Below are positions 22,340-29,677 of a DNA stretch of 64,000 nucleotides, piece after piece; the stretch's first letter is position 1, and each line of letters starts with the position of its first letter. The notes under the pieces were generated by a model. That model had not been told where the DNA came from and made no database searches. It worked only from the letters and a program-made list of their open reading frames with translations. The DNA is from Nonomuraea corallina. GTDB lineage: Bacteria > Actinomycetota > Actinomycetes > Streptosporangiales > Streptosporangiaceae. The stretch lies in the NCBI RefSeq assembly GCF_027620315.1, contig NZ_JAPNNL010000005.1, positions 1 through 64,000 on the forward strand, given 5' to 3'. A program made the translations under genes and the position numbers.

Positions 22340-22482
22340 CGCCCCGGGTGCGGCGGCCCGGACCGCCGCACCCGGACCGCCGGCGCCCCGACTGTCACAG
22401 CAGGTCAAGCCCGCCTCCTGAGTATCTGGGATGGCGATCCTCCGGTGGCGGTCAAGTCTTTTCTAAGCCGCCAGAGAGGGCG

Positions 22483-22530
22483 TGATTGATCCCTATTTGG
22501 GTGCTAGCGTCCTAATTGAGGAATCAATCA
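22483..22530. promoter_or_regulatory. Widely spaced inverted repeat upstream of a small peptide gene
   Basis: TGATTGAT (22483-22490) and ATCAATCA (22523-22530) are perfect inverted 8-mers 40 bp apart, about four helical turns, ending 17 bp before the small ORF. It could be a two-site operator or base-pair in the 5' UTR. No clear sigma hexamers were found. Confidence 0.45.
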
Positions 22531-22547
22531 GATCGAGGGGAGGCGCC

Positions 22548-22664
22548 ATGTCTGGCGGATACGGACGAGGCTGCCGCCGTCGTCACCACCGTCGTTTCTG
22601 CCGCCGCAGGAGGTGGTGGGGCTACTGGCACGACTGGGATGACGACTGGGGCTACTGGTGGTAG
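22548..22664 (+). CDS. 38-residue Arg/His- and Trp/Asp-rich peptide, unknown function
   Basis: A strong ribosome site GAGGGGAGG (22535-22543) precedes ATG 22548. The peptide is sharply bipartite: residues 1-22 carry mostly Arg/His plus two Cys, and residues 23-38 are Trp/Tyr/Asp-rich (seven Trp) and end with WGYWW. It has no signal peptide and no relatives that I recognise. Codon third positions are less G/C-biased than in neighbouring genes. Ribosome site, composition and the inverted repeat upstream argue for a real gene. Confidence 0.5.
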   Translation: MSGGYGRGCRRRHHRRFCRRRRWWGYWHDWDDDWGYWW

Positions 22665-23606: not shown

Positions 23607-24254
23607 TCAGCACGTCCGCAGCATGTTGAGCAGTGCCTTCTTCTCCGCCCGGGTCACGAACAGCCCGTAGTGCCGCTTCACGGTGATCCACGACGTCGCG
23701 TACTCGCACCAGTAGGCGCGGCGCTGCGGCCGCCAGCTCTGCGGGCCCTGGCCGCCCTTGGCGATGTTGGCGGAGTGGCTGACCGTGATCAGCTCCGGGC
23801 GGGTCAGGTCGTTGGCGAACGCGCGCCGCTTGGCCGGGCTCCACCGCTTGGCGCCCGAGCGCCAGGCGTACGCGAGCGGCACCAGATGGTCGACGTCCAC
23901 GTGCCTCTCGCTCTTCAGTCTCTTGCCGTCGTACGGGCTGTACCAGTGACCCTTGACCGGATGGCAGGCCGCGTTCCTGCGCACGCCCCGCCCGTCTCGC
24001 GCCAGCGCCAGCTCCCGCGTGCTGCACCGTCCCTTGCGGTTGACCCAGTGCGGCCGGAACTTCTCCCGGCTGTAACCCCGGATGGACAGCGGCCTGGCCA
24101 CCTTGAGCTGAGCCAGGGCGCGCCGGGCCGCGGCCTGCTTGGAGGATTCGGCCGACGCCTCCGGGGTAGTCAGGACGACGGTGGCCGGGAGAGCCACGAG
24201 AGTGAGCGCTGCGACGTGAGCCGACCGCCGCAGAGAGATCATGGTTTTGCCCAT
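23607..24254 (-). CDS. Secreted HNH-type (DUF1524-like) nuclease
   Basis: About 215 residues with an N-terminal signal peptide (to about the EASAES region) and a GmrSD/DUF1524-like HNH core: HVDVDHLVPLAYAW, an Asn in FANDLTRPELITVS, and HSANIAKGGQGPQSW. Small exported HNH proteins of this type are frequent in actinomycetes and are thought to be extracellular DNases. Three ATGs (24266, 24254, 24242) could start it; no Shine-Dalgarno decides, so the exact start is uncertain. Confidence 0.8.
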   Translation of the reverse strand: MGKTMISLRRSAHVAALTLVALPATVVLTTPEASAESSKQAAARRALAQLKVARPLSIRGYSREKFRPHWVNRKGRCSTRELALARDGRGVRRNAACHPVKGHWYSPYDGKRLKSERHVDVDHLVPLAYAWRSGAKRWSPAKRRAFANDLTRPELITVSHSANIAKGGQGPQSWRPQRRAYWCEYATSWITVKRHYGLFVTRAEKKALLNMLRTC

Positions 24255-24364
24255 GCCCAGCGGCATCCCCGATCATGGCGGCGATATTCGCCCCTTTTGT
24301 GGCTTCTGGCCGTCGCGACAGGTCCCGGAACCCGCGCGGACGGGGCCGTGAGAGGATCGGCAGT

Positions 24365-24920: not shown

Positions 24921-25406
24921 CTAGCGGGGTGCGAGCCCGGTCTTCCCGTCGATCAGCTCGCGTACGACGTCGAGGTGCCCGGCATGACGGGCGGTCTCCT
25001 CGATCATGTGCAGCGCGATCTGCCGTAAGTCGGAGATCTTGTCTCCCGGCGGATGGGGATGGCGTCCCCGGGGCCGCGCCGACAGCGGCAGGGCGGCGAG
25101 GACGGCGTCGGACCGCGCGCACTGGGCGCGGTAGAAGGCCAGGACCACCGACGGCGGGCGCGGGGTCGTGAGCGGCTCGTGGTCGTCGGCCGGCCAGGGC
25201 AGGGGCTCGGCGGAACCCAGGGCGACCTCCTGGAACCAGTGGCGCTCCGCGTGACCCAGATGCTCGACGAGCCCCAGCGGGGTCCATCCCGAGGGCAGGA
25301 CGGCGGTCGTCAGGGCGTCGTCGTCGAGACCGTCGAGGATCGCCAGCACGGCGGCGCGCTGCGCCTCCAGGAACGTCAGCAGGGCGTCCTTCTCGCTGTC
25401 GCTCAC
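24921..25406 (-). CDS. DinB-family (DUF664-like) metal-dependent protein
   Basis: 161 residues forming a predicted four-helix bundle. Candidate metal-ligand histidines lie in VEHLGHAERHW and near the C-terminus in HMIEETARHAGHLD. Many family members are mycothiol- or bacillithiol-dependent transferases of unknown substrate. A single-gene unit. Confidence 0.8.
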   Translation of the reverse strand: MSDSEKDALLTFLEAQRAAVLAILDGLDDDALTTAVLPSGWTPLGLVEHLGHAERHWFQEVALGSAEPLPWPADDHEPLTTPRPPSVVLAFYRAQCARSDAVLAALPLSARPRGRHPHPPGDKISDLRQIALHMIEETARHAGHLDVVRELIDGKTGLAPR

Positions 25407-25615
25407 CGGCCCACAGCCCTTCTCCGGCCAACCCGCCGCACCGAAGGCTAACGACCGCCTCCGACATTTCTCGCGCGGCCGCTTGTGGAGCTAAACGTCC
25501 TCTTTGTCATGAAGTACGTAGAGCATGCCTTGACGATAACCATGACCCGCTTCGCGTGACTAGAGCTGTACTATCCTGGCCGCTCCTAAAAGGATCAACA
25601 CTGAGGATTTACGCC

Positions 25616-26167
25616 GTGTCAGTCTTGTGGGCCGCATTAGCCATCGTCTTCGTCATCTGCCTGCTCAACCTCGTGCTCACCATCGCGGTGATCCGGCGCC
25701 TTCGCGAGCACACCGAGCTGCTCAATCGAGGAGGCGGACAGCACCCCGGACAGGAAGAGATCACCCTGCCCGCCGGCTCCCGCGTCGGCGAGTTCAGCGC
25801 CGTCACGGTCGACGACCGGACGCTGACCCGCGAGGATCTCCGGCCGGGGATGCTCGTGGCCTTCTTCTCGCCGCGCTGCCCCACCTGTGAGGAGGAGAAG
25901 CCGGCCTTCATCCGGTACGCCTCCGGCCTGCCGGGCGGCCCCGACCAGGTGATCGCCGTGCTGCTGGGCACACCCGAGGAGCTCGCCGGGCTGCGCGAGG
26001 AGCTGGGCGAGGTCGCGCGGATCGTCATCGAGCCGGACGTCGACGGCGCGATGTCCACGGCGTTCGCCCTGCGCGGATACCCCGCCTTCTGCCTCATGGG
26101 CCAGGACGGCGTCCTCCAGGTGACCGGGTTCCGGGTCGACGTCCTGCCCGACTCCGTGGCCCTGTGA
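25616..26167 (+). CDS. Membrane-anchored thioredoxin-like (TlpA-type) protein of the Cys-rich peptide cluster
   Basis: 183 residues: one N-terminal TM helix (about 5-27), then a redoxin fold with CPTC active site (FFSPRCPTCEEEKPAF) and RGYPAFCLM near the cis-Pro position. TGAGGA 8 nt before GTG 25616 fixes the start (the frame opens upstream at 25556). It overlaps the ABC exporter gene by 4 nt (GTGA). In context it probably makes or shuffles disulfides in the exported Cys-rich peptide encoded downstream. Confidence 0.82.
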   Translation: MSVLWAALAIVFVICLLNLVLTIAVIRRLREHTELLNRGGGQHPGQEEITLPAGSRVGEFSAVTVDDRTLTREDLRPGMLVAFFSPRCPTCEEEKPAFIRYASGLPGGPDQVIAVLLGTPEELAGLREELGEVARIVIEPDVDGAMSTAFALRGYPAFCLMGQDGVLQVTGFRVDVLPDSVAL

Positions 26168-27966
26168 CGACCGGCAGGCGGGTCGCCCTCGCCGCGTGGC
26201 GGCTGGCCTGGCGGTCCTCGGCGCGTACGACCGTCGCCCAGCTCGTGCTGACCGTGCTGGGCGCGGGCGCGCCCGTCGCCGTCGCGTGGCTGACGAAGAT
26301 CGTGTTCGACCGGTTGAGCGCCCCGGACGGACCCGGGGACCTGACGTGGCCGATCACCGGCCTGGTCGCCGCGGGCATCCTGACGGCGCTGCTCGCGCAG
26401 GTGCTGCGCTACCTGCGGGCCGAACAGGGACGGATCGTCGCACTCGCCGCCCTCGACCGGCTCTACGCCGCGGTCAACAGGCTGGTCGGCCTGGGACGGT
26501 TCGAGGACCCGCAGTTCGCGGACCGGCTGCGCTTCGCCCGCCACGCCGGCGGGTCCGGACCGGCCGAGATCGTGGCCGTGAGCCTGAACCTGCTCCAGCA
26601 GGTCCTGGTGACCGCCGGGTTCGTCATCTCCCTGGTCACCGTCAGCCCGGTGCTGGCGGTGGTCGTCCTGGCCGGCGCGCTGCCCGCCGTCGGCGCCGAG
26701 TTCGCGCTCGCCCGCCGGCGGGCCGAGGCCATGAACACCGTGGGACCGCTGGAACGGCGCGAGCTGTTCTACGGCCAGCTGCTCTCCGACGTGGAGGCGG
26801 CCACCGAGGTGCGGCTGTTCGGCGTCGGCTCCTTCCTCCGGCGACGGATGCTCGGCGAACGCCGCAGCGCCAACCGGGTGGAGCGGGCCATGGACCGGCG
26901 CGCCCTGGGCACGGAGGCGCTGCTCACCGCGCTCTCGACCGCGGTCGCGGGCGGCTGCCTGGTCTGGGTGGTCAACGCCGCCGCCGCCGGGGCGGTCTCC
27001 ATCGGTGACGTGTCCATGCTGGTCGCCGCCGTCGCCGCGGTCCAGGCGGCGCTGCTCGGCATCGTGCGCGACCTGGCCGGGGCGCACACCCAGCTGCTGA
27101 TGTTCGGCCACTACCTCGCCGTCGTGGAGGCGGAGCCCGACCTGCCGGTGGCGGCCCGCCCCCTTCCGGTGGAGCCGTTGCGGCACGGCATCGAACTGCG
27201 CGACGTCTGGTTCCGCTACCGGGAGGACCTCCCGTGGGTGCTGCGCGGCGTCACCGTGACCATCCCGAAAGGCCGGTCGGTCGCTCTCGCCGGGTACAAC
27301 GGCGCCGGCAAGAGCACGATCATCAAACTCCTGTGCCGCTTCTACGATCCCGACCGCGGCCAGATCCTCTGGGACGGCGTCGACCTGCGCGACCTCGACC
27401 CGGCGCAGCTGCGCGCCCGGATCGCGGGCGTCTTCCAGGACTTCGTCTCGTACGAGATGTCAGCCGCCGAGAACATCGGCATCGGGGACGTGGAAGCCCT
27501 GGCGGACCGGTCACGCGTCGAGAACGCCGCCCGGGACGCGGGCGTCCACGACATCCTCGACAGGCTCCCGCACGGGTACGACACGCTGCTCAGCCGCATC
27601 TACTTCGCCGGCGACGAACTCAACGGGAACACCCCGGGCACCACGCTCTCCGGCGGCCAGTGGCAACGGGTCGCCATCGCCCGCAGCTTCCTGCGCGGTG
27701 GTCGTGACCTGCTCATCCTCGACGAGCCGAGCGCACGCCTCGACGCCGAGGCCGAACACGAGATCCACCAGGGCTTCCGGCGGCTTCGCGCCGGCGGCAC
27801 CAGCCTGCTGGTGTCGCACCGGCTCGGCACGATCCGGGACGCCGACCTGATCCTGGTGCTCGACGGCGGCACCGTGGCCCAGGCCGGGCGGCACGACGAA
27901 CTGGTCGAGGCGGGAGGGCTCTACGCCGAGCTGTTCTCCCTCCAAGCCGCCGGATATCGGGATTGA
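26164..27966 (+). CDS. Type I ABC exporter (fused TM and ATPase domains)
   Basis: 600 residues: six TM helices (about 1-330), then an ATPase with Walker A GYNGAGKST, signature LSGGQWQRVAIARSFL and Walker B LLILDEPSARLD. There is no peptidase (C39) domain, so leader removal must be done by another protein; a signal peptidase gene lies 0.45 kb downstream. The start overlaps the thioredoxin-like gene. Best read as the exporter of the Cys-rich peptide. Confidence 0.88.
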   Translation: MTTGRRVALAAWRLAWRSSARTTVAQLVLTVLGAGAPVAVAWLTKIVFDRLSAPDGPGDLTWPITGLVAAGILTALLAQVLRYLRAEQGRIVALAALDRLYAAVNRLVGLGRFEDPQFADRLRFARHAGGSGPAEIVAVSLNLLQQVLVTAGFVISLVTVSPVLAVVVLAGALPAVGAEFALARRRAEAMNTVGPLERRELFYGQLLSDVEAATEVRLFGVGSFLRRRMLGERRSANRVERAMDRRALGTEALLTALSTAVAGGCLVWVVNAAAAGAVSIGDVSMLVAAVAAVQAALLGIVRDLAGAHTQLLMFGHYLAVVEAEPDLPVAARPLPVEPLRHGIELRDVWFRYREDLPWVLRGVTVTIPKGRSVALAGYNGAGKSTIIKLLCRFYDPDRGQILWDGVDLRDLDPAQLRARIAGVFQDFVSYEMSAAENIGIGDVEALADRSRVENAARDAGVHDILDRLPHGYDTLLSRIYFAGDELNGNTPGTTLSGGQWQRVAIARSFLRGGRDLLILDEPSARLDAEAEHEIHQGFRRLRAGGTSLLVSHRLGTIRDADLILVLDGGTVAQAGRHDELVEAGGLYAELFSLQAAGYRD

Positions 27967-28068
27967 CCGCGACCTGAATAGATCTTTACTGTAGGTCAAA
28001 ACGGGTCAAGATCGAGTGATGCCTACCGGAATCCGACGAACGGCCCGTCACCTCACAAGGGAGCAAGC

Positions 28069-28275
28069 ATGCTGCGACTCTTCAACACGCTGGGCGACCG
28101 GATGCTGTCCGCCTTCGTGCCCAAGGTCACCGCCCAGGCCGCCTGCACGACCTGGAAGGAATTCTGCTACTGCAGCGGTGTCTATTCCATTTCCCGGTGG
28201 TGCGACCGCGGCTGCGACAGCAGCCAGACGACCTGCGGGCCGTGCAACGTGAGAGGGGCCAAGTACAGCTGCTAG
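28069..28275 (+). CDS. Cys-rich precursor-like peptide (8 Cys), candidate secreted peptide
   Basis: 68 residues after AAGGGAG and ATG 28069. The leader-like part (1-24) is amphipathic and ends VTAQA, an AxA-like signal-peptidase site. The remaining 44 residues hold all eight cysteines (26, 33, 35, 45, 49, 56, 59, 68), enough for four disulfides. It lies between an ABC exporter/thioredoxin-like operon and a type I signal peptidase gene, and is followed by a strong hairpin, as is common after RiPP precursor genes. I do not recognise it as a named bacteriocin family; the precursor role is inferred. Confidence 0.7.
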   Translation: MLRLFNTLGDRMLSAFVPKVTAQAACTTWKEFCYCSGVYSISRWCDRGCDSSQTTCGPCNVRGAKYSC

Positions 28276-28292
28276 CTCACCCGTAAGACGCG

Positions 28293-28322
28293 AGTGGCCG
28301 CCGGCCGGAGCCGGTGGCCGCT
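28293..28322 (+). terminator. Hairpin after the Cys-rich peptide gene (attenuator-like)
   Basis: A 13-bp stem with two G-T wobbles (28293-28305 with 28310-28322) and loop CGGA. No long T tract follows, so it may partly terminate or stabilise the mRNA, letting the peptide gene be expressed above the downstream peptidase. Confidence 0.6.
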
Positions 28323-28419
28323 TCCGTGTCACGGACCCGGCCGCCTGGCGGCGGGTGACGCTCCCCACCCTCACCGTGCGACCCGCCGATGAGTTCCACC
28401 GAACAGTAAGGCGCCTTCC

Positions 28420-28896
28420 GTGCAGGCCGTGATCGCAGTGCTCCTGGCAGGCGCCGGCGTGGCGGCCCTCGCCGCGGTGCTGCGGCGCAGGTTCGTGCTG
28501 GCCACCGTCGCGGGCTACAGCATGGCGCCCACCCTGCGTCCCGGCGACCGTCTCCTCATACGCCGCGCGCCCCTGTCGCGCCTGAGCGTGGGCGACATCG
28601 TCGTGGTCGTGCCGGACGCCCGGATGGCGGCGGGGCCGCGCCACACCACCGGCTACGTGATCAAACGGTTGGCCGCCGTACCGGGGGATCCCGTACCGGA
28701 TCACGTCCCGGCGCCGGCGCACGAACGCGTCCCTCCCGGCCGGATGGTGATCCTGGGGGACAACCCCGACGCCAGCCGCGACTCGCGGGACTACGGCCTG
28801 GTCACCCAGGAGCAGCTCGTCGGCGTCGTCGTGCGCGCCCTCGGCGCCTCGGACCCGGCCAAGGACGAACCCACAAGAGATCAGGCCAACCCGTAA
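28420..28896 (+). CDS. Type I signal peptidase (S26 family) of the Cys-rich peptide cluster
   Basis: 158 residues with one N-terminal TM helix and S26 boxes: nucleophile Ser in GYSMAPTLRPGD, Lys in GYVIKRLAAVPGD and box E GDNPDASRDSRDYG. Smaller than housekeeping LepB and with little beta-domain insertion, suggesting a dedicated substrate. AAGG lies 8 nt before GTG 28420. It most likely cleaves the peptide encoded 145 bp upstream. Confidence 0.85.
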   Translation: MQAVIAVLLAGAGVAALAAVLRRRFVLATVAGYSMAPTLRPGDRLLIRRAPLSRLSVGDIVVVVPDARMAAGPRHTTGYVIKRLAAVPGDPVPDHVPAPAHERVPPGRMVILGDNPDASRDSRDYGLVTQEQLVGVVVRALGASDPAKDEPTRDQANP

Positions 28897-28951
28897 CGCG
28901 GTCCCGCAGGAAATCAGGCGAAACCGTAAGGCAGTCTCTATCCTGCGGGAG

Positions 28952-29677
28952 GTGCGCAACTCCCTCACCTTCGCGAACCTCCTCGACGACGCCGCCCTGC
29001 TCTCCCTGGAGCACCAGCTGCACCTCGAAGAAGTTCTCGCCGAGCACTCCTGGCACGTGAACCTGAAGCAGCCGCTCTTCGAGTTCACCGGCGACCGGAC
29101 GATCACCTGCACCGCCTTCCACCTGCTCGGCACCGCCGCCCCCGGACCGGCTTCGTGGCTGTGGGCGTGGGCGAACCCGTCGGGCTTCCCGGAGGCCGTG
29201 GTGTCCGCCTCGGAACGGGTACGCGACTTCGGGCGGCAGCACGACATCCCGGAACTGGCCTCCGCGGAGGTGCCGTTCGCCTCGCTGCCCGGCTCCCCGT
29301 CAGTGCCGCACGTGGTCGCCGGACTGCTCACGGAGGCGGCCAAGACGGTGACCGGGCACTGGACCTCGTACAACGGGGAAGCCGGCGGCGGGACCAGGGC
29401 CGCGTTCCTCGTGGAGCACCCCGACTTCCACCTGCCCGCGCCCGAGCCGGTCCGGGTGATCCGCGTCATCCAGCAGGCGCTCGCCGACCTGTCGCTGACC
29501 GACCACCGGCGCGCGCTGCGCGCCTACGCCGCCGGTCGCGGCCTCGGCGCGGAGTTCGACGACCGCGAGGGCCGGCTCACCGGGCCGGGATTCGAAGTGG
29601 TCGTGGACCTCGACGCGTACGGCCGCGTCACCGCCATCAAGGCCGGCCTGCCCTCACCCGACGGACCGACCCCCTGA
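28952..29677 (+). CDS. DUF6882-like protein of unknown function
   Basis: 241 residues, cytoplasmic. It contains a central WLWAWANPSGFPE segment and a long acidic/aromatic body resembling an actinomycete family annotated DUF6882. No catalytic motif is visible. GTG 28952 follows a TATCCT element by only 7 nt and has no usable Shine-Dalgarno spacing, so the message may be leaderless. Function unknown. Confidence 0.65.
   Translation: MRNSLTFANLLDDAALLSLEHQLHLEEVLAEHSWHVNLKQPLFEFTGDRTITCTAFHLLGTAAPGPASWLWAWANPSGFPEAVVSASERVRDFGRQHDIPELASAEVPFASLPGSPSVPHVVAGLLTEAAKTVTGHWTSYNGEAGGGTRAAFLVEHPDFHLPAPEPVRVIRVIQQALADLSLTDHRRALRAYAAGRGLGAEFDDREGRLTGPGFEVVVDLDAYGRVTAIKAGLPSPDGPTP

Follow-up and report, generated by a model that had tools for sequence, protein, structure and literature searches.

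Candidate leader-directed disulfide peptides, their putative S26 peptidase and a predicted cytoplasm-facing redox module, seen from a locus of Nonomuraea corallina

Candidate gene clusters in which MauE accompanies a cysteine-rich precursor were previously predicted by decRiPPter, which listed three mauE families of putative ribosomally synthesized and post-translationally modified peptides (RiPPs) in Streptomyces, one of them also containing mauD, with precursors holding at least eight cysteines; these clusters were filtered for a transporter, a peptidase and a regulator, and a role in precursor modification was suggested for MauE (PMC7794033). In 2026, linear polyphosphorylated peptides (LPPs) were described as products of clusters in which a SipW-type leader peptidase (LppS) cuts the leader, aided by an RRE protein that binds it, and which also encode an MsbA-like exporter (PMC13381572). 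Here, we analyzed a 64,000-nucleotide stretch of the soil bacterium Nonomuraea corallina (contig NZ_JAPNNL010000005.1, positions 1 to 64,000; hereafter the window), in which four genes encode a membrane-bound MauD/TlpA-like thioredoxin protein, an ABC exporter, a 68-residue cysteine-rich peptide and a small S26 peptidase. With a probability of roughly 0.65, we propose that the peptide's leader would be cut by the S26 peptidase, that its core would receive four disulfides through the thioredoxin and MauE, and that the product would leave through the ABC exporter.

All the parts listed in an initial annotation of this locus are present, namely four open reading frames (ORFs) with a 4-bp overlap, a CPTC motif, an exporter without a C39 peptidase, eight cysteines after AQA24, a hairpin and a small S26 peptidase. 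The same annotation likened the set to disulfide-bearing bacteriocin clusters, and a thiol-disulfide protein and an ABC exporter do serve a small cysteine peptide in sublancin-type systems as well. However, sublancin-type exporters carry a C39 peptidase and go with GG leaders, in contrast to the S26 peptidase and AxA site found here, and the name bacteriocin is unproven for this peptide. Bacteriocin export of the C39/GG kind was ruled out, with no C39 domain detected by Pfam in the exporter and a leader that ends in AQA. The decRiPPter families share with relatives of the window set the presence of MauE beside a precursor with at least eight cysteines, the window itself lacking MauE; they are predictions for Streptomyces, and section 7 of that paper presents no leader family, S26 peptidase, topology or link to nickel superoxide dismutase (NiSOD). 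They may be the Streptomyces side of the family described here, as compared by description rather than by precursor sequence. LPP clusters likewise pair a signal-peptidase-I-like leader peptidase with an MsbA-like exporter, but come from Bacillota, yield a phosphorylated rather than a disulfide peptide and use an RRE protein and an HprK-like kinase, neither of which was found among the window proteins scanned (nine with Pfam, five with NCBIfam).

The peptide, thioredoxin, exporter and S26 peptidase almost certainly form one functional system, as judged from their conserved proximity. Hidden Markov models (HMMs) of the partners were built from the neighbours in the window, in loci L005-L010 and in 20 diverse loci, and applied to 35 other loci identified with the peptide profile, fetching about 8 kb on each side (shorter at contig ends). 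Within these 35 loci, which are partly non-independent as several come from one genome, the peptide was accompanied by TlpA and by S26 in 34 each, by the ABC exporter and by MauE in 33 each, and by a BTAD-type regulator in 24. Because TlpA, ABC, S26 and MauE stand together beside the peptide in 31 of the 35, the genes appear to act as a unit, as the initial annotation had supposed. Over the same thresholds, none of the five genes was found in any of 20 arbitrary 16-kb control stretches from related genomes; ABC matches of 61-106 bits in four of them fell below the threshold of 350. MauE was also found in 14 of the 20 loci used for HMM building, and the catalytic motifs are kept almost throughout, with GxSM in 63/63 cluster S26 proteins and CxxC in 55/57 TlpA matches. 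Weighing against a fixed unit, 11 of 55 peptide loci lack one or more of the four partners: homologues without partners, which the initial annotation had named as refuting its reading, do occur, one locus (L047) having none of the four, another (L148) S26 only and nine lacking one or two, while the others are complete.

Several individual loci illustrate the range of arrangements. L047 (G146:C1:3070500-3090400) holds an orphan precursor adjoining a BTAD-type regulator with no S26, TlpA or MauE nearby, and L057 (G291:C1:3683500-3703400) contains two facing clusters, each with a peptide, TlpA, ABC exporter, S26 and BTAD regulator and with one MauE overall. On Streptomyces plasmids, including those of S. 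clavuligerus and S. atratus, the order is peptide(s)-MauE-TlpA-ABC-S26. Among these plasmid clusters (L257-L261), the records of L259 and L260 are typed as mobilizable, which suggests spread by conjugation. Plasmid searches returned 30 records for MauE, all actinomycete, and 32 for TlpA, of which 29 belong to Streptomyces, Embleya or Nonomuraea and three are weak matches in Neisseria and Mycolicibacterium.

Judged by its leader and core, the 68-residue ORF is a member of a large actinobacterial precursor family with a near-constant leader and hypervariable cores. The peptide has no match to any Pfam or NCBIfam family, in agreement with the initial annotation, which could name no class for it, but it is not a singleton. 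A search with the window peptide alone gave matches at E 0.01 in 83 of 297 genomes from the order, the weakest possibly arising by chance and some containing stops. With a profile built from 24 sequences, 61 database proteins were recovered at E 1; the same profile, with 15 candidates scored in each genome, hit 18 of 394 genomes from the class at E 1e-5, frequently with several hits in one genome. From the loci and the database, 142 precursors were collected, a set that still counts near-copies and one ORF in the wrong frame, with the leader pattern M....LGDRLL..LVPK.TA.A. Proline at position -7 of an AxA-like site with alanine at -1 occurs in 134 of the 142, near-copies counted, and a looser rule places an AxA-like site in 137. 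The 127 distinct cores contain six (71 cores), eight (47) or ten (7) cysteines, with four and seven in one core each, so that the number is even in 126/127, and in 46/47 representatives after reduction to below 50% identity. These even counts support full pairing, and the core cysteines very probably form disulfides. A near-constant leader before a diversified core, a feature of RiPP-like precursor systems, is thus present. Plain Sec secretion was ruled out, as 0/119 distinct leaders contain a membrane-like stretch (17-residue hydropathy of at least 1.7). More than one precursor is encoded in 12 of 61 loci; one of them, L054 (G279:C28:340000-359900), has seven different precursors beside a single TlpA-ABC-S26-MauE set. 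The source strain itself carries three clusters, in the window, on contig C78 (L010) and on contig C1 (L125).

The side of the membrane on which this precursor is processed was approached through charge distribution, which, under the positive-inside rule, places the active sites of the S26 peptidase, the thioredoxin and the MauE CxC loop on the cytoplasmic face, opposite to housekeeping signal peptidases, as a prediction. Cluster S26 proteins begin almost directly with a hydrophobic segment that is followed by RRR, and there are 5 lysines plus arginines (K+R) ahead of this segment and 65 behind it (20 of 22 proteins); for the 12 of 22 in which a 4-bp overlap with the gene in front fixes the start, the count is 2 against 41. 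A second set of 35 S26 proteins gave 7 before and 93 after, with more charge after the segment in 33 and the reverse in none. The window thioredoxin has a single N-terminal membrane segment followed by RRLREH, and TlpA proteins in general gave 1 against 76 (24 of 28 proteins) and, in the second set, 0 against 71 (27 of 35 matches, eight skipped), with more after than before in 26 of 27 and none reversed; all four Streptomyces TlpA proteins with database starts lack K or R before the segment. Conversely, 21 LepB proteins from related genomes had 128 before and 2 after. In MauE, the CxC motif (PCRCFGAS) lies in the third loop in 47/47 proteins, a count that omits three matches under 100 bits, and loops 1 and 3 hold 513 K+R against 28 in the N-terminal tail and loops 2 and 4, being richer in all 47.

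Several points weigh against this topology. It was derived from the positive-inside rule and a hydropathy script rather than a dedicated predictor; the second set uses the start that lies closest to the membrane segment, a choice biased towards short N-terminal tails, and two of its S26 proteins have equal charge on both sides. The LepB control counted the 20 residues before the segment instead of the true tail, and the MauE loop borders were set by eye, leaving a frequent arginine at column 9 of the first segment uncounted. The canonical MauD and MauE of methylotrophs serve a periplasmic enzyme, so the module may work outside. An S26 protein of S. atratus (L258) apparently lacks a membrane segment as annotated, and an in-frame upstream start would supply one; the plasmid copies in L259 and L260 have no segment over threshold, and none of the three serves as main evidence. 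A term search of PMC4555120 gave nothing on an inverted VKOR topology.

The conventional order, in which a reduced, leader-bearing precursor is exported first, S26 cuts it outside and the thioredoxin and MauE oxidise or shuffle its disulfides there, is implied by the initial annotation and fits several observations. AxA is a classical signal peptidase I site, and the window S26 protein reaches 80.4 bits with the signal peptidase I model, whose cut-off is 47. MauE has also been speculated to form the disulfides of the enzyme it serves (PMC7794033). Nonetheless, we consider external cutting and folding less likely, given that K+R lies after the segment in 33/35 S26 and 26/27 TlpA proteins with no reversals, while related LepB proteins show the usual pattern. 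Because of this topology argument we favour, with some reserve, leader removal and disulfide formation on the cytoplasmic side. The LPP leader peptidase (PMC13381572), which by analogy makes such an inside-first order plausible, would on our reading likewise cut inside the cell, although the passages on it name no compartment.

In the proposed scheme, a ribosomal precursor, its amphipathic leader 24 and its core 44 residues long, would be handled by the membrane-bound thioredoxin, the S26 peptidase, the ABC exporter and, in most relatives, MauE. L..LxxPK..AxA would serve for leader recognition, the Ser/Lys S26 peptidase would cut behind AQA24, the thioredoxin would pair the eight cysteines into four disulfides, MauE would re-oxidise the thioredoxin, probably with quinone, and the finished peptide would exit through the ABC exporter; the order of these steps and the electron acceptor are what we infer. 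That S26 is the leader peptidase is highly probable. A more specific version, with an inverted MauD-MauE relay on the inner face, a SodX-like S26 on the same side, a leader derived from or convergent with that of NiSOD and export of the folded peptide, is put forward tentatively.

The parallel to NiSOD lies in a short L..LL.PK...A/VxA leader before a cysteine-containing start, encoded beside a small S26 peptidase, SodX, which cuts the NiSOD leader. An example from this order is MLARLLRPKHVASA before HCDLPCG, and six genomes of family f20 (probably Streptomyces) have MLSRLFAPKVKVSA. The window leader MLSAFVPKVTAQA precedes AC, and its P-7, A/V-3 and A-1 are in register with many NiSOD leaders. 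The cluster-leader profile was applied to the 14 residues preceding the NiSOD His-Cys, in 42 distinct versions of which some possibly run past the true start, and to 397 control N-termini, each given the best of 31 positions. The score of MLSRLFAPKVKVSA was reached by 0/397 controls, and for 23 of the 42 leaders by at most 3/397; six of the 42 scored in the lower half, making the result uneven. NiSOD differs in being a metalloenzyme rather than an exported peptide, and SodX forms its own clade. The likeness of the leaders may reflect common origin or convergence on one kind of S26 recognition. In NHLP/Nif11-type RiPPs, too, leaders are related to enzymes, so that a leader resembles the start of an unrelated enzyme, there with a different enzyme and a different modification.

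On the SodX model TIGR02754, five cluster S26 proteins score 36-57 bits, three LepB 19-25 and two SodX 58-70; the window protein (57.0 bits) and the strain's own SodX (57.8) both fall under the cut-off of 63.25, and the other four cluster proteins score 36-40. On the signal peptidase I model TIGR02227 the cluster proteins reach 68-80 bits, compared with 124-141 for three LepB and 37-49 for SodX. The window protein passes the cut-off of that model, a point against the proposed scheme; the other cluster proteins score 68-79 bits. In a tree of 115 rows after filtering, SodX and LepB fall into one solid clade each, with the cluster rows between them, and the support of the key fork (47/70) leaves unsettled which of the two lies closer. 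A housekeeping signal peptidase (LepB) was ruled out by the position outside the LepB clade together with the reversed charges, although the protein passes the TIGR02227 cut-off.

The NiSOD-like leader also raises the idea that the core cysteines bind a metal or cofactor, as in a metallothionein-like or Ni/Cu peptide acting as metallophore or carrier, with the thioredoxin and MauE keeping the redox state. The NiSOD leader ends just before the His-Cys start, and CxC and CxxC spacings occur in many cores. The even cysteine number in nearly all cores would be expected for pairing rather than metal binding, however, the spacings vary widely among cores, and no recurrent metal gene was noticed among the neighbour families listed, which are mostly unannotated. 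We therefore regard metal binding as improbable.

MauE is a core component in most relatives and is absent from the window; it is a fifth gene that the initial annotation, which read the four genes as a complete route, could not see. In N. harbinensis, the MauE gene (PF07291, 94.3 bits; 89.7 bits for S. clavuligerus MauE) lies directly 5' of TlpA. Comparison of the two sequences at this site, with flanks matching at about 90% and 613 bp replaced by about 34 bp, makes deletion from the window appear the simplest reading. Intact MauE is found nearby in four of the eight closest clusters (L005, L006, L007, L009), a remnant in L008 (N. jiangxiensis) and none in the window, L040 and L042. Because only these four hold it, MauE would seem to be dispensable or supplied in trans, a point against the proposed pathway. 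Supply by the copy in the C1 cluster is possible; this copy, the best other MauE of the source genome, shares 39% identity with N. harbinensis MauE.

Close matches to the peptide come from Nonomuraea: N. harbinensis (100%), N. terrae, N. aridisoli, N. jiangxiensis and N. maritima. Compared with N. harbinensis, the peptide gene shows 13 synonymous and no amino-acid differences over 68 residues, and because of this the frame is evidently under purifying selection, bearing out the codon-level conservation that the initial annotation had asked for. All eight cysteines are invariant in 12/12 aligned sequences, drawn from the window, close Nonomuraea, Micromonospora and metagenomes; both Micromonospora forms have ten. 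Across 28 pairs of eight Nonomuraea genes, pN/pS was 0.13 for the leader, 0.22 for core residues 25-50 and 0.86 for residues 51-68; by these ratios the leader is frozen and the C-terminal end fast-changing within the close Nonomuraea group. With the peptide identical in N. harbinensis, the leader so constrained and the S26 and thioredoxin catalytic motifs intact, a decaying and possibly non-functional window copy is very improbable, despite the apparent MauE deletion, the remnant in N. jiangxiensis and the two other clusters in the same strain.

A GC-rich hairpin follows the peptide gene and can be drawn in 8/8 sequences (window and seven relatives), with 75-nt folds of -38 to -47 kcal/mol as raw energies not set against shuffled sequence; the lowest-energy fold of L009 uses other pairs. 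In the consensus, both sides change at 4 of 15 pairs, each in one or two sequences, with few events counted and L006 and L007 being near-copies among the eight. The hairpin was not listed by a terminator scan, and Rfam gave no element at gathering threshold within 25000-29000. It may act as a terminator or stabiliser and so adjust the ratio of peptide to peptidase, raising peptide over peptidase levels. Within the 100 bp 5' of the peptide gene, a AACGGGTCAAG...GCCTACCGG block recurs with small variations in 8/8 sequences (window, L005-L009, L015 and L017). Because no sigma-70-like promoter was found in 25400-28960, this block is possibly a regulator site. No BTAD regulator was found within the 64 kb of the window.

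Table 1 Features of the peptide locus in the window
Feature	Position	Strand	Description
Site of the missing MauE gene	25482..25517	+	~34 bp, compared with 613 bp including the whole MauE gene in N. harbinensis (L005:3887-4417)
MauD/TlpA-like thioredoxin protein	25616..26167	+	183 aa, GTG start
ABC exporter (membrane and ATPase half-transporter)	26164..27966	+	600 aa; 4-bp overlap with thioredoxin gene
Conserved, putatively functional 5' region of peptide gene	27967..28068	+	GGGTCAA...GCCTACCGG-type block and GGGAG-type ribosome-binding site, from comparison of eight sequences
Precursor peptide	28069..28275	+	68 aa; leader 1-24, core 25-68 with eight Cys
Strong GC hairpin	28281..28334	+	Immediately past the peptide stop codon; folds in eight sequences
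Putative S26 leader peptidase	28420..28896	+	158 aa; GYSM contains the Ser and IKRLAAVPGD the Lys; RRR follows its single membrane segment

Domain scores for the window proteins (Table 1) vary. The thioredoxin, with its CPTC active site, reaches 23 bits on PF00578 (AhpC-TSA), slightly below the cut-off of 26; the exporter scores 101.5 bits on PF00005 and 16.4 on PF00664, below the cut-off of 28; and the S26 protein scores 72.2 bits on PF10502. All eight cysteines of the precursor follow A-Q-A24, after which cleavage is predicted. For the resulting core with four disulfides, an average mass of 4876.4 Da was computed, close to the 4.8 kDa first estimated; the reduced core would weigh 4884.5 Da. 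The AlphaFold model of the peptide has a mean pLDDT of 49.9, and a PDB search for known relatives gave a single chance-level sequence match (E 1.6). Directly 3' of the S26 gene lies a DUF6882 protein (28952-29677; PF21813, 111 bits); in N. harbinensis (L005), our own gene calls place a YCII gene next after S26. Further upstream lie a secreted-looking protein with a GmrSD_C/HNH nuclease-like domain (23607-24266, minus strand; PF07510, 41.5 bits) and a candidate gene, a 60-aa ORF with extreme Arg/His/Trp/Asp content (22482-22664).

The product may have a competitive (bacteriocin-like) or a signalling role. An antimicrobial function is an even prospect, against which stands that no immunity gene was recognised. 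Within the open-licence papers searched, the leader family, the role of S26 in it, the topology and the NiSOD parallel were not found described, and the predicted cytoplasm-facing enzymes and the NiSOD-like leader look new. If the proposed pathway is true, the disulfide peptides guided by this leader would make up a large family in which an S26 leader peptidase takes the place of C39 or LanP types; its named hosts include Streptomyces clavuligerus plasmids. This raises the general and testable question of whether bacteria can use dedicated membrane enzymes to make disulfides at the cytoplasmic face ahead of export. One leader that directs more than 100 different cysteine-rich cores would then also be a natural platform for making and displaying disulfide miniproteins.

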